From positions 62,001 to 126,000 of the forward strand of contig VGMX01000004.1 of assembly GCA_016866305.1 (NCBI GenBank): DNA of 64,000 bases, given 5' to 3'. The first letter of the stretch is position 1. The number at the start of each line of letters is the position of its first letter. Source of the DNA: Chlorobiota bacterium (GTDB taxonomy: Bacteria > Bacteroidota > Chlorobiia > Chlorobiales > Chlorobiaceae). The notes under the pieces were generated by a model, which had not been told where the DNA came from, did no database searches, and saw only the letters and a list, made by a program, of their open reading frames with translations. A program made the position numbers and the translations under genes. This document shows, piece after piece, positions 4,187 through 8,783 of the stretch.

Positions 4187-5689
4187 TTGTTTTTTCCGGT
4201 AATTGAAACAATATTGACAATTGGATTATCAGAACCATTAAACCGATACCGAGCATTGCCGCTTCTCAATTTCATCCCCGGAATGGCTCTTCTCCGCCGG
4301 AAAAGAACCGGACATGGTCTTTTTCTGCTGCTTTCCTTTGTCGCCTACATACTGATCCTTGCCCTGCAATGGGATCTGGTGCTCATCAGTTACCGCTCAC
4401 TTGCCTCCGCAGCGGCACTGCTTTTCCTATCGCCAGGCAAGCTCGGGGAAGTTTTCAGCATGGATATCGTCGAGTTCTGGGTTGCCTCCATTGCGCTGGT
4501 CGCCGTTCCGCTCGTTCTTGTATCTGTTTCAGGACGGTCATCAAGCCAGAAAACCGCTAAAAACCTTCATGCATCAAGCCTTGGAAGCATCAGTCTGCAG
4601 GCCTTCATGCGCAACACCATAGCCCAGGCCGCTTCGGTAATCGTTTTCGTGCTTTACTCCATAGCATTTCTCGCTCCGCTGCTTGCGCCATTCAGCCCCT
4701 ACGACCAGCAGGACTTCCTGGTCACCGCCTACAAGCCGCCTCTGACCCGCCTGCAGGCCCTGGTGCTTGAACAACCGAAAATACAGGCATTACAGGCCGA
4801 ATCAGCAACCGGAATCCAGGACCGACTCTCCGGGTCCCTGATCGGCGATCTCCGGACCCTGAAAACACGCAACGAACCCCATGCGCTGAAATTCATAGAC
4901 AGCTACCGCATCGAAAAAGGCACGGTTTTCTACCGGCAAGGCATACGTGAACGATCCATGCCGAGCACGGAGCTTGCCGACCCTGCGGGAAAGAGTGCAG
5001 CCGTCACCCGAACCTTCGTGCTGGGCACCGACCAGTACGGACGCGACATTCTCAGCCGGGTGATCTACGGCTCCCGTATCTCGCTTTCCATCGGCTTTCT
5101 GGTAGTGCTGATCTCGGTAACACTGGGAACGATCATCGGTATTTCATCCGGCTACTTCGGAGGATGGATCGATGCCGTGCTGATGAGGATTGTCGATGTG
5201 CTGATCGCATTTCCTGCCCTGTTCCTGATCCTCATCATCATCGCGGCATTCGGCAACTCGATCTACCTGATCGTCATCACGCTCTCCTTTACCGGATGGA
5301 TGGGCGTATCACGCATTGTCAGAAGCCAGGTACTCTCGCTCAAGGAGCAGGAGTTCATCCTGGCGGCCAAAGCGCTCGGATTGTCGAACATGCGGATCAT
5401 TTTCCGCCACCTTGCACCAAATACCCTTACGCCGGTCATCATCGCCGCAACCCTCAGGATCGGAAGCATTATCCTCACCGAAGCCGGACTTTCGTTTCTC
5501 GGTCTCGGCGTGCAGCCACCCACGCCAAGCTGGGGCAACATCATCAACGAGGGACGTGACAGCCTCCTGAACCACTGGTGGATATCCACGTTTCCCGGCA
5601 TTGCCATTCTCACCACGGTGGTCTGCTTCAACCTGATCGGCGATGGCGTCCGAGACGCGCTGGATCCGAGAATGCGGGGTCAGTCATGA
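4187..5689 (+). CDS. OppC/DppC-type ABC transporter permease with extra N-terminal membrane domain
   Basis: The C-terminal ~220 residues form a BPD-transporter permease domain of the peptide/nickel class, with the loop that contacts the ATPase (EFILAAKALGLSNMRIIFRH, then LAPN) and the typical ending LSFLGLGVQPPTPSWG. The protein is 500 residues against ~300 for usual OppC. The excess is two extra hydrophobic segments (residues ~40-60 and ~100-120) before the normal first helix (~150) and a ~100-residue presumed periplasmic insert (~175-285). No binding protein, partner permease or ATPase lies beside it, so the substrate is unknown. The stop codon overlaps the NUDIX start (ATGA), so the two are coupled. 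Confidence 0.85.
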   Translation: MFFPVIETILTIGLSEPLNRYRALPLLNFIPGMALLRRKRTGHGLFLLLSFVAYILILALQWDLVLISYRSLASAAALLFLSPGKLGEVFSMDIVEFWVASIALVAVPLVLVSVSGRSSSQKTAKNLHASSLGSISLQAFMRNTIAQAASVIVFVLYSIAFLAPLLAPFSPYDQQDFLVTAYKPPLTRLQALVLEQPKIQALQAESATGIQDRLSGSLIGDLRTLKTRNEPHALKFIDSYRIEKGTVFYRQGIRERSMPSTELADPAGKSAAVTRTFVLGTDQYGRDILSRVIYGSRISLSIGFLVVLISVTLGTIIGISSGYFGGWIDAVLMRIVDVLIAFPALFLILIIIAAFGNSIYLIVITLSFTGWMGVSRIVRSQVLSLKEQEFILAAKALGLSNMRIIFRHLAPNTLTPVIIAATLRIGSIILTEAGLSFLGLGVQPPTPSWGNIINEGRDSLLNHWWISTFPGIAILTTVVCFNLIGDGVRDALDPRMRGQS

Positions 5690-6558: not shown

Positions 6559-6885
6559 ATGGCAGCGAGCCTGCCGAGCGAAGCTCCACGAGTTTTCAAT
6601 TCGTATCGAGAATCGACGGGAACACCTTTTTCATAAAGGCATCGGGTTTCGACGAAAACCTTGAAGAGGTCGAAGCCTATGCTGCAAAAATCATCAAGGC
6701 AGCACTCCGGCTCGGGGCTCCCCGTGTGCTTTGCGAAGAAAGTCGCAGGAATCGCAATCGCCTGCAATCCGGCTTTCATTGCCGATGCTCGCTTCTTCGA
6801 AAACATCGTCGTCAGCCGCGGCCTCATCCTCGGCATGTTCACCGACACCGAATCGGCCAGAAGCTGGCTGATGGGAATAAAGTGA
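6559..6885 (+). pseudogene. Decayed gene with several frame breaks (resembles small STAS/SpoIIAA-like proteins)
   Basis: Coding-quality sequence continues across this stretch but hops frames. A start ATG at 6559 (MAAS) is followed in another frame by HEFSIRIE, in a third by DGNTFFIKASGFDENLEEVE through APRVLCEE (ending near 6740), and then in the first frame again by VAGIAIACNPAFIADARFFE to SARSWLMGIK and a stop at 6885. Joined together these read as one ~110-residue protein. The conserved-looking end (VVSRGLILGMFTDTESARSWL) is like small STAS/SpoIIAA-type proteins that end 'RGL...FTD..A..WL'. The jump from LCEE to VAGI also looks like an internal deletion of some tens of residues. Sequencing error cannot be excluded, but at least three breaks make decay more likely. 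Confidence 0.6.
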
Positions 6886-6935
6886 CGGCAGAGAAGCATG
6901 AATTTGATTTCCCTGCAATCACAAGACAAAATTAA

Positions 6936-7334
6936 TCAGCGAATATCCACCGGAGCGCAATCAGCATCTCCTTCATCGCAAGTCATACAGGCATCCTTGC
7001 CTGTACCGCAATCTCCGTCCATCGCGTCACAGTTATCGCAACTGTCTTTCGGCGCATCACAATACGTGCAGACCTGGTCGCCTTCATCACAGGTCACACA
7101 TGGCGTCGGCGGATTGAGCCAGTCCGAAGCGTCACAGCTGTTGCATGTGTCATTGGGAACATCGCAAAGAGTACAAGCATCAGCTCGAGGTGCAGCAAGA
7201 CCGGCCTGCATGCGAAAAGCCTCCAACTGTCCTGCCGAGACATTAAAAGCTCTCCCGTTTATTCTCTCAAGATCAAAAAGAATAACCGATGCATTCTCTG
7301 TCAGGGATTGTAAGTTTGAATTATTTTCGTTCAT
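6936..7334 (-). CDS. Cys-rich CxxCD-repeat peptide, probable RiPP precursor
   Basis: The 132-residue product has two parts. Residues 1-53 contain no Cys and look like a leader (SVILFDLERINGRAFNVSAG then QLEAFRMQAGLAAPRADA). Residues 54-132 hold 14 Cys (54, 57, 64, 67, 79, 82, 89, 92, 99, 102, 109, 116, 119, 126), 12 of them as six CxxC pairs, each followed by Asp (CTLCD, CNSCD, CVTCD, CTYCD, CDNCD, CMTCD). Pairs recur at a ten-residue period, interrupted by longer spacers of 15 and 17. The region has about 18 Asp and two Lys. It starts 12 bp after the stop of the radical SAM gene. Its Shine-Dalgarno (AAGGAT) overlaps that stop, so the genes are translationally coupled. Modification by the neighbour is inferred. 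A metal-binding peptide is an alternative. Confidence 0.75.
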   Translation of the reverse strand: MNENNSNLQSLTENASVILFDLERINGRAFNVSAGQLEAFRMQAGLAAPRADACTLCDVPNDTCNSCDASDWLNPPTPCVTCDEGDQVCTYCDAPKDSCDNCDAMDGDCGTGKDACMTCDEGDADCAPVDIR

Positions 7335-7346
7335 GATTTTATCCTT

Positions 7347-8510
7347 TTAGTTTTCACTGGCCAATATACGTCCGGTGTTTTCATAATCCTGTAAGTCACC
7401 AAAAACCGTAAGACAAGCCGATGCCGCAACCTGAGCGAGCAAGCGGTTCACTGGAGAAGCCTTTACCGGACTTCCGGTTGTTACCGCATTCACTGCCATG
7501 CACCCTGCATGGCAAACAGGAAAAAGCAGACAGTTGCCGCAATGCTGTAGTCGGCTTTCTGTGCCCTCAGCATAAATACCCGATCCGCATGTCTCCGAAT
7601 TCTCCAGTCTGCTGTACGACATATACTTGGCCCTGCTTGGCGGGTCGATACCATCAAATACAGTCCCGATACGGGACTCCTGACTTTTTCCGAAATATCC
7701 GAAGAATCGCTGACATGGATAAAGATTGCCGCTGGCATCAATAGCCACGAGATTTCGCGAAGCACCACAACCATAATGCCTTGAATGCCCTTTCCGTAAG
7801 CGGTCGAAGTCCCTTGCAAGATTTTTAATCTTTGCTTTTTTCCGGGAGTTCTGCTTCTGAAATGCATGCAAATCCTTGTATGCATCATAGAGTGCCGAGA
7901 GGCTGTATGCAGACCAGTTTGCCTCAACAACAGGAGAAAAAAAGATACTTTCGAAGCCGTTATCAAGAAGCCAGTGCACCGAATGAGAGAGCAAAGGGGC
8001 AGTATCGGGAGATACAGTCAGTCTCACTGAGACATACGGTAAACTCCTGATAAGGTCAATATTATTCTCGATAAGCCTGAAAGAGCCTCGACCGTCGGTT
8101 TGTTTCCGGTGGCGATCCTGGGCTTCCCCGGCACCATCAATGCTGAGATTGACCTTTATCCGAAAAAGTTTGATGAGTTCTGCCCGTGTCTGGTCAATAA
8201 GTGTACCGTTTGAGGTCATGGAAAAACGGATTTCACGATTTTCGACTTTCGCCCGTTCAAGTACCCGAAAACATATATCTTCGATGACTTCTGGCACCAT
8301 AAGAGGCTCACCGCCAAAAAAACAAAGTGACAACGGCAAAGTTTCGTTATTTTCACACGTTTGGCCAAACATGAAATCCAAGGATTTCGCGATCACATCT
8401 TCACCAATCCGTTGCGGATTGGATACCATGTAACAGTAATCGCACCGCAGGTTACACTCTTCGGTGACCATGAGAATGAAATTACTGAAAACAGGTTCTT
8501 GACGATGCAT
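7347..8510 (-). CDS. Radical SAM/SPASM peptide-maturase-like enzyme
   Basis: The 387-residue protein carries the radical SAM cluster motif CNLRCDYC (Cys 19, 23, 26) and the SAM-binding GGEP (66-69). Its C-terminal SPASM domain matches the full pattern: C248-x12-G-x4-C266, then C324-x2-C327-x5-C333-x3-C337 and a final C366, enough for two auxiliary 4Fe-4S clusters. C308 is extra. SPASM enzymes of this size usually modify ribosomal peptides or activate enzymes in trans. The ATG at 8510 is chosen because the 38 upstream residues of the open frame lack family features and precede the motif unusually far. The gene lies upstream of, and coupled to, the CxxCD-repeat peptide, its most likely substrate. 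By hand count two of its lines are 40-45% G+C against 55% in comEC, which hints at transfer. Confidence 0.88.
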   Translation of the reverse strand: MHRQEPVFSNFILMVTEECNLRCDYCYMVSNPQRIGEDVIAKSLDFMFGQTCENNETLPLSLCFFGGEPLMVPEVIEDICFRVLERAKVENREIRFSMTSNGTLIDQTRAELIKLFRIKVNLSIDGAGEAQDRHRKQTDGRGSFRLIENNIDLIRSLPYVSVRLTVSPDTAPLLSHSVHWLLDNGFESIFFSPVVEANWSAYSLSALYDAYKDLHAFQKQNSRKKAKIKNLARDFDRLRKGHSRHYGCGASRNLVAIDASGNLYPCQRFFGYFGKSQESRIGTVFDGIDPPSRAKYMSYSRLENSETCGSGIYAEGTESRLQHCGNCLLFPVCHAGCMAVNAVTTGSPVKASPVNRLLAQVAASACLTVFGDLQDYENTGRILASEN

Positions 8511-8614
8511 TATCAGAATACTCTTTTTGCTGTTGATTCCGGACAACAAGCCCCTTGGTTTTCCGATTCCGGAATAACAGGTTTTATTGATTTTGCTTGA
8601 TCTGGGGTTTAAAA

Positions 8615-8620
8615 AATATA
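8615..8620 (-). promoter_or_regulatory. Possible -10 element upstream of the radical SAM cassette
   Basis: On the minus strand the only clearly AT-rich stretch in the 273-bp gap before the radical SAM gene contains TATATT here. No convincing -35 hexamer accompanies it, so this is tentative. Confidence 0.2.
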
Positions 8621-8783
8621 GCAAAAAACATTTAACTCTTTTGCCGGAAAGGGTATCGGCACGCTCCCTCCTGTAGTTTTCATCCCGGCTGCCATCCCTG
8701 TCGTGTATGTACGGAGCTCAACCGGACATCAGAAGAATCAACCCTGTCATAATGATTTTTTCATTGTCTCCTCCCGTTGGTTG

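Follow-up and report, generated by a model that had tools for sequence, protein, structure and literature searches.

A two-gene cassette, most probably for a ranthipeptide of the freyrasin (PapA/PapB) type, in a Chlorobiaceae genome

The enzyme-peptide locus

The window analysed here, a stretch of 64,000 nucleotides from a Chlorobiota bacterium of the Chlorobiaceae, carries on its reverse strand a gene for a SPASM radical SAM enzyme followed directly by a gene for a small Cys-rich peptide (Table 1). The TAA stop of the enzyme lies at 7349-7347 and the ATG of the peptide at 7334, leaving a gap of 12 bp, and across this junction (GAAAACTAAAAGGATAAAATCATG) the AAAAGGA sequence of the peptide gene and the stop codon of the enzyme share two bases. 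An earlier note on this DNA had described a 387-residue SPASM radical SAM enzyme, a 132-residue peptide 12 bp further on with a Cys-free leader-like part and a 14-Cys core, and a peptide Shine-Dalgarno overlapping the enzyme stop; all of this was borne out, with the CX3CX2C motif at 19/23/26, SPASM Cys at 248, 266, 324, 327, 333 and 337, residues 1-53 of the peptide free of Cys, and the two-base overlap by AAAAGGA.

Table 1. Features of the locus (positions in the window; one-letter residue numbering within each protein)
Feature	Position	Strand	Basis
Predicted SPASM radical SAM maturase, PapB-type, 387 aa	7347..8510	-	ATG start; NF047865 match and clade
CX3CX2C motif (C19, C23, C26), predicted SAM-binding cluster	8433..8456	-	sequence; invariant in alignment
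SPASM auxiliary-cluster region, C248/C266/R268/C308/C324/C327/C333/C337	7500..7769	-	spacing compared with PapB; C308 invariance
Shine-Dalgarno-like AAAAGGA of the peptide gene	7342..7348	-	overlaps enzyme stop codon
Predicted precursor peptide, 132 aa, 14 Cys	6936..7334	-	sequence; weak NF037957 match
Cys-free leader, residues 1-53	7176..7334	-	sequence
Core repeat unit 1 (CTLCDVPNDTCNSCDASD...CVTCDEGD), residues 54-86	7077..7175	-	internal duplication
Core repeat unit 2 (CTYCDAPKDSCDNCDAMD...CMTCDEGD), residues 89-123	6966..7070	-	internal duplication
Insertion carrying the pair, approximate limits	6886..8650		absent at the same place in two related genomes (G052, G295)

Among the neighbours of the locus, no dedicated exporter or protease directly adjoins the enzyme-peptide pair, and searches of the whole genome found neither a C39 leader peptidase nor a PqqD-like stand-alone recognition protein. 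An OppC-type peptide permease gene is found at 4187-5689, about 1.2 kb from the pair, and since a relative with the empty site has this permease too, the gene does not belong to the cassette. Promoter and terminator scans stayed near chance level.

The precursor peptide and its Cys-X3-Asp motifs

All 14 Cys of the peptide fall within residues 54-126, that is, inside the C-terminal 79 residues, the first of them being residue 54. Every one of them is followed by an Asp at a fixed short distance, at X3 for 11 of the 14 and at X4 for the other 3, so that no Cys is left without an Asp, and the CX3D count of 11 compares with 2.9 ± 1.4 in shuffled cores, none of 100,000 shuffles reaching 11. The recurring CxxCDxxD element consists of two overlapping motifs, in which the first Cys pairs at X3 with the Asp just behind the second Cys, and the second Cys pairs with an Asp at X3 or X4. 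The core arose by internal duplication, its two units aligning in the DNA with 67 of 106 columns identical (z of about 8 against codon shuffles), and the relatives described below have a single unit.

The freyrasin_like model NF037957 matches the peptide with 20.6 bits over the core only, below its cutoff of 30. Aligned with those of four relatives, the leader shows no detectable homology (alignment p of 0.12-0.54), whereas among these four the leaders of Methylocystis, Trujillonella and Planobispora match one another with z of 11-15.

The maturase and its cluster ligands

Searched against 18,950 NCBIfam models, the enzyme has NF047865 (rSAM_PapB) as its top family by a factor of two, with 330.4 bits and an E value of 1e-98, 10 bits short of the curated cutoff of 340. 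The runner-up models were the nif11 maturase (156 bits), quinohemoprotein maturation (137) and CXXX-repeat (124) families, and with 121.8 bits against a cutoff of 425 the enzyme falls far short of the SCIFF maturase model TIGR03974. Among solved structures, the best sequence match was 5wgg, the radical SAM protein CteB (E 1.5e-28).

In PapB of Paenibacillus polymyxa, the radical SAM (RS) cluster ligands have been assigned to C119/C123/C126, those of auxiliary cluster 1 (AC1) to C352/C370/C421, and those of auxiliary cluster 2 (AC2) to C408/C411/C417 together with C440 (Eastman et al. 2023, PMC10470005). The corresponding residues of the Chlorobiaceae enzyme are C19/C23/C26 for the RS cluster, C248/C266/C337 for AC1 and C324/C327/C333 for AC2, with the same spacing in C248-X17-C266 as in C352/C370, and in C333/C337 as in C417/C421. 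Mutation of Arg372 abolished crosslinking by PapB (PMC9413430), and R268 stands two residues past C266, just as R372 stands two past the AC1 ligand C370; given that this Arg is also found in other aligned SPASM enzymes, R268 fits PapB but is not diagnostic of it. At the place corresponding to the AC2 ligand C440, the enzyme has no Cys. C308 is invariant across the five-member clade in our alignment and may stand in for C440 as the AC2 ligand, C366 being another candidate, which is not conserved. With nine sequences as input, AlphaFold2 gave a model of the barrel but none of the SPASM part, pLDDT being about 25-45 beyond residue 300.

A further difference lies at the N terminus, where 18 residues precede the first cluster Cys in this enzyme and 16-35 in four relatives, compared with 118 in P. 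polymyxa PapB, whose extension would be expected to hold the leader-binding recognition domain (PMC9413430, PMC10470005). The enzyme lacks this extension, and therefore its leader binding must differ from that of P. polymyxa PapB. The short N terminus is shared by three clade members scoring above the cutoff, which means that the extension does not define the NF047865 profile family.

We weighed the alternative that the pair belongs to the same superfamily of RiPP systems and makes a different crosslink, at Cα as in sactipeptides, at Cγ as in SCIFF peptides, or as mixed thioethers to residues other than Asp. The CxR and cluster motifs are indeed common to SPASM thioether enzymes and the enzyme remains under the PapB cutoff, but the Asp at X3 or X4 of every Cys goes far beyond chance, the SCIFF, nif11 and quinohemoprotein models reach less than half of the PapB score, and the partners of the enzymes in its clade are CX3D peptides, and thus we regard such other crosslinks as unlikely.

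Relatives and the conserved gene pairing

A search of genome contigs with the enzyme sequence alone gave no matches, and relatives surfaced there only through an alignment of the C-terminal part. This alignment brought out similar enzymes in Trujillonella endophytica and Planobispora longispora and on two Novosphingobium/Pseudomonadota MAG contigs, and a further one lies on a Methylocystis iwaonis plasmid. We looked for homologous enzymes lacking the peptide partner, which the earlier note had named as contrary evidence, and found in 5/5 relative loci a gene for a CX3D peptide 3' of the enzyme gene on the same strand, either overlapping it or at most about 130 bp apart. The peptide of Methylocystis, which RefSeq labels "freyrasin family ranthipeptide", has 7/7 Cys in CX3D, and that of Trujillonella 6/6. 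The peptides of three relatives exceed the NF037957 cutoff (70.8, 126.9 and 87.9 bits), and three enzymes (P0004, P0007 and P0008) exceed the PapB cutoff with 412, 409 and 423 bits. In Novosphingobium, the enzyme (285 bits with the PapB model) and its peptide (no match) both stay under the cutoffs, like the Chlorobiaceae pair. The core and the Novosphingobium peptide have CDAPxDxCDxCDxMD in common, in a match of 62% over 21 residues that falls in repeat unit 2 (E 3e-7, as a single comparison).

A tree built from 21 SPASM enzymes, P. polymyxa PapB not among them, places the Chlorobiaceae enzyme in one clade with P0004, P0007, P0008 and P0006, with support 96/92. The pairing holds in every member of this supported clade that we found, across three phyla, and so the earlier reading of a radical SAM RiPP maturase translated together with its precursor gains support. 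The surroundings are mobilisation and IS66 genes in Methylocystis, MreB and NAD-epimerase genes in Trujillonella, YjbR and MarR genes in Planobispora, and UvrD and DEAD-box helicase genes in Novosphingobium. Among the genes examined at the relatives' loci there was no dedicated exporter and no leader protease, and hence the absence of a transporter or protease alongside the pair, pointed out before for this DNA, extends to these relatives. On a Bradyrhizobium septentrionale plasmid (L083:2776-5507), we also observed a radical SAM gene resembling those of quinohemoprotein maturases that adjoins a gene for a tryptophan 7-halogenase and has one for a ferritin-like protein in its vicinity.

The pairing bears on whether the peptide, rich in Cys and Asp, could serve in metal binding or Fe-S storage and have a radical SAM gene as its neighbour by coincidence. 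Cys and Asp are indeed highly abundant in the core, and it is generally known that CxxC pairs can bind metal. Against this, the enzyme-then-peptide order is common to five taxa of three phyla with unrelated surroundings, a single insertion brought in both genes, no peptide copy without the enzyme was found among 296 genomes of the phylum, and the peptide matches none of the Pfam metal-binding families. We consider a metal-binding peptide exceedingly improbable, and a coincidental neighbourhood was rejected, given that the pairing is kept while the surroundings vary among loci.

Distribution in the phylum and origin of the pair

Only 1 of 86 Chlorobiaceae genomes encodes an enzyme that comes close to the PapB cutoff, the runner-up reaching 268 bits and grouping with a nif11 maturase in the tree. 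A search of 394 genomes of the phylum with an enzyme profile (A4) found no other clade member, the next best score being 222 bits vs. 575, and a search with the peptide through plasmids and 296 genomes of the phylum matched nothing except its own genome. Other Chlorobiaceae enzymes (at most 268 bits with the PapB model) were rejected as orthologues, as those included in the tree fall outside the clade, and where their neighbours were listed, no CX3D peptide was seen beside them. Viral and phage collections yielded only distant SPASM proteins.

Two other arrangements were seen in these genomes. In several congeneric genomes, small peptides with a GGQCLSGCKDECITVSK-type Cys-rich tail (L036:955-1239, L038:1162-1362 and L039:2635-2841) sit just upstream of a different SPASM radical SAM gene, forming a second, separate RiPP-like pair. 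In genome G060, a 60-residue peptide ending in AACSLSCKICQCMECAKIPGGDV and having no CX3D motifs (L031:2607-2789) adjoins a SPASM enzyme (L031:1354-2529) that scores 262 bits with the PapB model, has a Cys in the C308 column, and forms a long branch near the clade with unsupported placement.

Two related genomes (G295 and G052), whose comEC is about 73-75% identical, lack the pair at this place, which lies between comEC and the NUDIX-side genes. The GC content of the pair is 47.6% against a window mean of 55.1%, and its GC3 is 0.45-0.46 compared with 0.65-0.68 for the neighbouring genes. Being an insertion of lower GC that is missing from close relatives, the pair was probably acquired by horizontal transfer, and probably as a unit. 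No convincing repeats marking a mobile element were found at the insertion ends.

Next to the insertion, at 6560-6885 (+), there is a small-gene remnant that seems frameshifted, through decay or possibly an assembly error; its counterpart in G052 is an intact ORF of 125 residues (L056:650-1027). We also considered whether the pair itself might be a decaying, non-functional cassette left over from transfer, as its presence in 1/86 Chlorobiaceae genomes and the frameshifted look of the adjoining small gene could suggest. Nevertheless, both frames are open, the catalytic residues are all present, Asp is kept for 14/14 Cys and the translational junction is intact, which makes decay very improbable.

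Proposed identity, chemistry and function

Taking all of this together, we consider it highly probable that the two genes were acquired horizontally and make up a ranthipeptide cassette of the freyrasin (PapA/PapB) type, which would form thioethers from Cys-S to Asp-Cβ. The sequence basis of this proposal is the family assignment, the conserved pairing, the motif geometry, the cluster ligands and the PapB-required Arg, from which we infer the reaction, the ring pattern and a leader recognition that works without the N-terminal extension. Counted in favour of a PapB-type enzyme are a score of 330 bits, over twice that of the next family, with relatives at 409-423 bits on the same model; the 96/92 clade, with a CX3D peptide after each enzyme and, here, Asp for 14/14 Cys; and a ligand spacing that, together with R268, matches PapB. 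Counted against it are the scores of both proteins under the curated cutoffs (330.4/340 and 20.6/30), the lack of an N-terminal extension and of a C440 counterpart, and a leader having no detectable homology. The class would thus not be "likely undescribed", as had been proposed before, since the enzyme is of PapB type, and the CxxCD core that had seemed to match no family corresponds in CxxCD(xxD) to the freyrasin CX3D crosslinking motif.

PapB joins Cys to the β-carbon of Asp in Cys-X3-Asp, giving rings that are nested or in line, and it tolerates spacings from X0 to X6 in vitro (PMC9413430). An earlier test, as reported in a review, had left X4 unmodified in PapA (PMC8172795). By this chemistry, the radical SAM cluster would cleave SAM, and the thiolate of the Cys four residues upstream, bound on auxiliary cluster 1, would attack, giving a Cys-S to Asp-Cβ thioether with a change of -2 Da each. 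With the overlapping CX3D pairs of CxxCDxxD, repeated action of the enzyme would produce 11 rings at CX3D, or as many as 14 were the three CX4D sites also used, for a total of about -22 to -28 Da. More tentatively, the locus may represent a short PapB lineage having no fused leader-binding domain, in which a cluster ligand has moved to C308 and a duplicated core carries up to 14 nested thioethers; we regard this fuller picture as possible and rather doubtful.

As for function, the core contains 17 Asp and 2 Glu among its 79 residues, and such acidity would make a membrane-active cationic antimicrobial unlikely. The product may stay inside the cell or exit by general routes, a suggestion we make with low confidence. 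SCIFF ranthipeptides have been linked to clostridial quorum sensing (Chen et al. 2020, as cited in PMC8326336), and this link could serve as a lead only for the function of the product. The class is already known, and its interest is accordingly moderate; what the pair adds is a variant form and a new host group, which would extend freyrasin-type chemistry to green sulfur bacteria in a small system that has no exporter and carries roughly double the usual number of motifs. Should the short enzymes work in the absence of the N-terminal extension, they would reveal how a leader is recognised when no recognition domain is fused to the enzyme, and could serve as compact tools for the synthesis of thioether peptides with many rings.

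Comparison with known systems

The freyrasin system PapA-PapB of P. polymyxa resembles the Chlorobiaceae pair in its adjoining precursor and SPASM genes and its CX3D motifs (PMC10470005, PMC9413430), and PapB also in the RS, AC1 and most of the AC2 ligand spacing and in the required Arg. It differs in that freyrasin has six crosslinks, compared with 14 Cys in a duplicated core here, and in that PapB has an N-terminal extension of about 100 residues and C440, while the Chlorobiaceae enzyme has neither and carries the clade-specific C308.

The SCIFF/CteB, nif11/NlpM and quinohemoprotein (QhpD/PeaB) maturases are also SPASM enzymes of RiPP systems, thioether-forming or related, with a shared ligand pattern, and differ in their model scores (at most 156 bits) and in their substrates. 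In those of NlpM and PeaB type that were examined, about 90-119 residues stand ahead of the cluster motif.

Among the relatives, the Novosphingobium MAG contig JACKKX010000002 (L052), together with a near-copy (L050), holds an unannotated pair with the core CIECDAPQDICDSCDVMD (62% over 21 residues). Its enzyme is 35% identical and also below the PapB cutoff, and its peptide differs in having one core unit with 6 Cys, 3 of them in CX3D, and no family match. The pair of the M. iwaonis plasmid pSS37A-Re-2 (WP_281932655 / WP_350356532) likewise has a short PapB-type enzyme (378 residues, 35% identical), with the peptide directly after it and no exporter or protease. Its peptide differs by a single-unit core with 7 Cys, all in CX3D, and by a leader that matches freyrasin_like with 70.8 bits, unlike the Chlorobiaceae leader, which has no such match.
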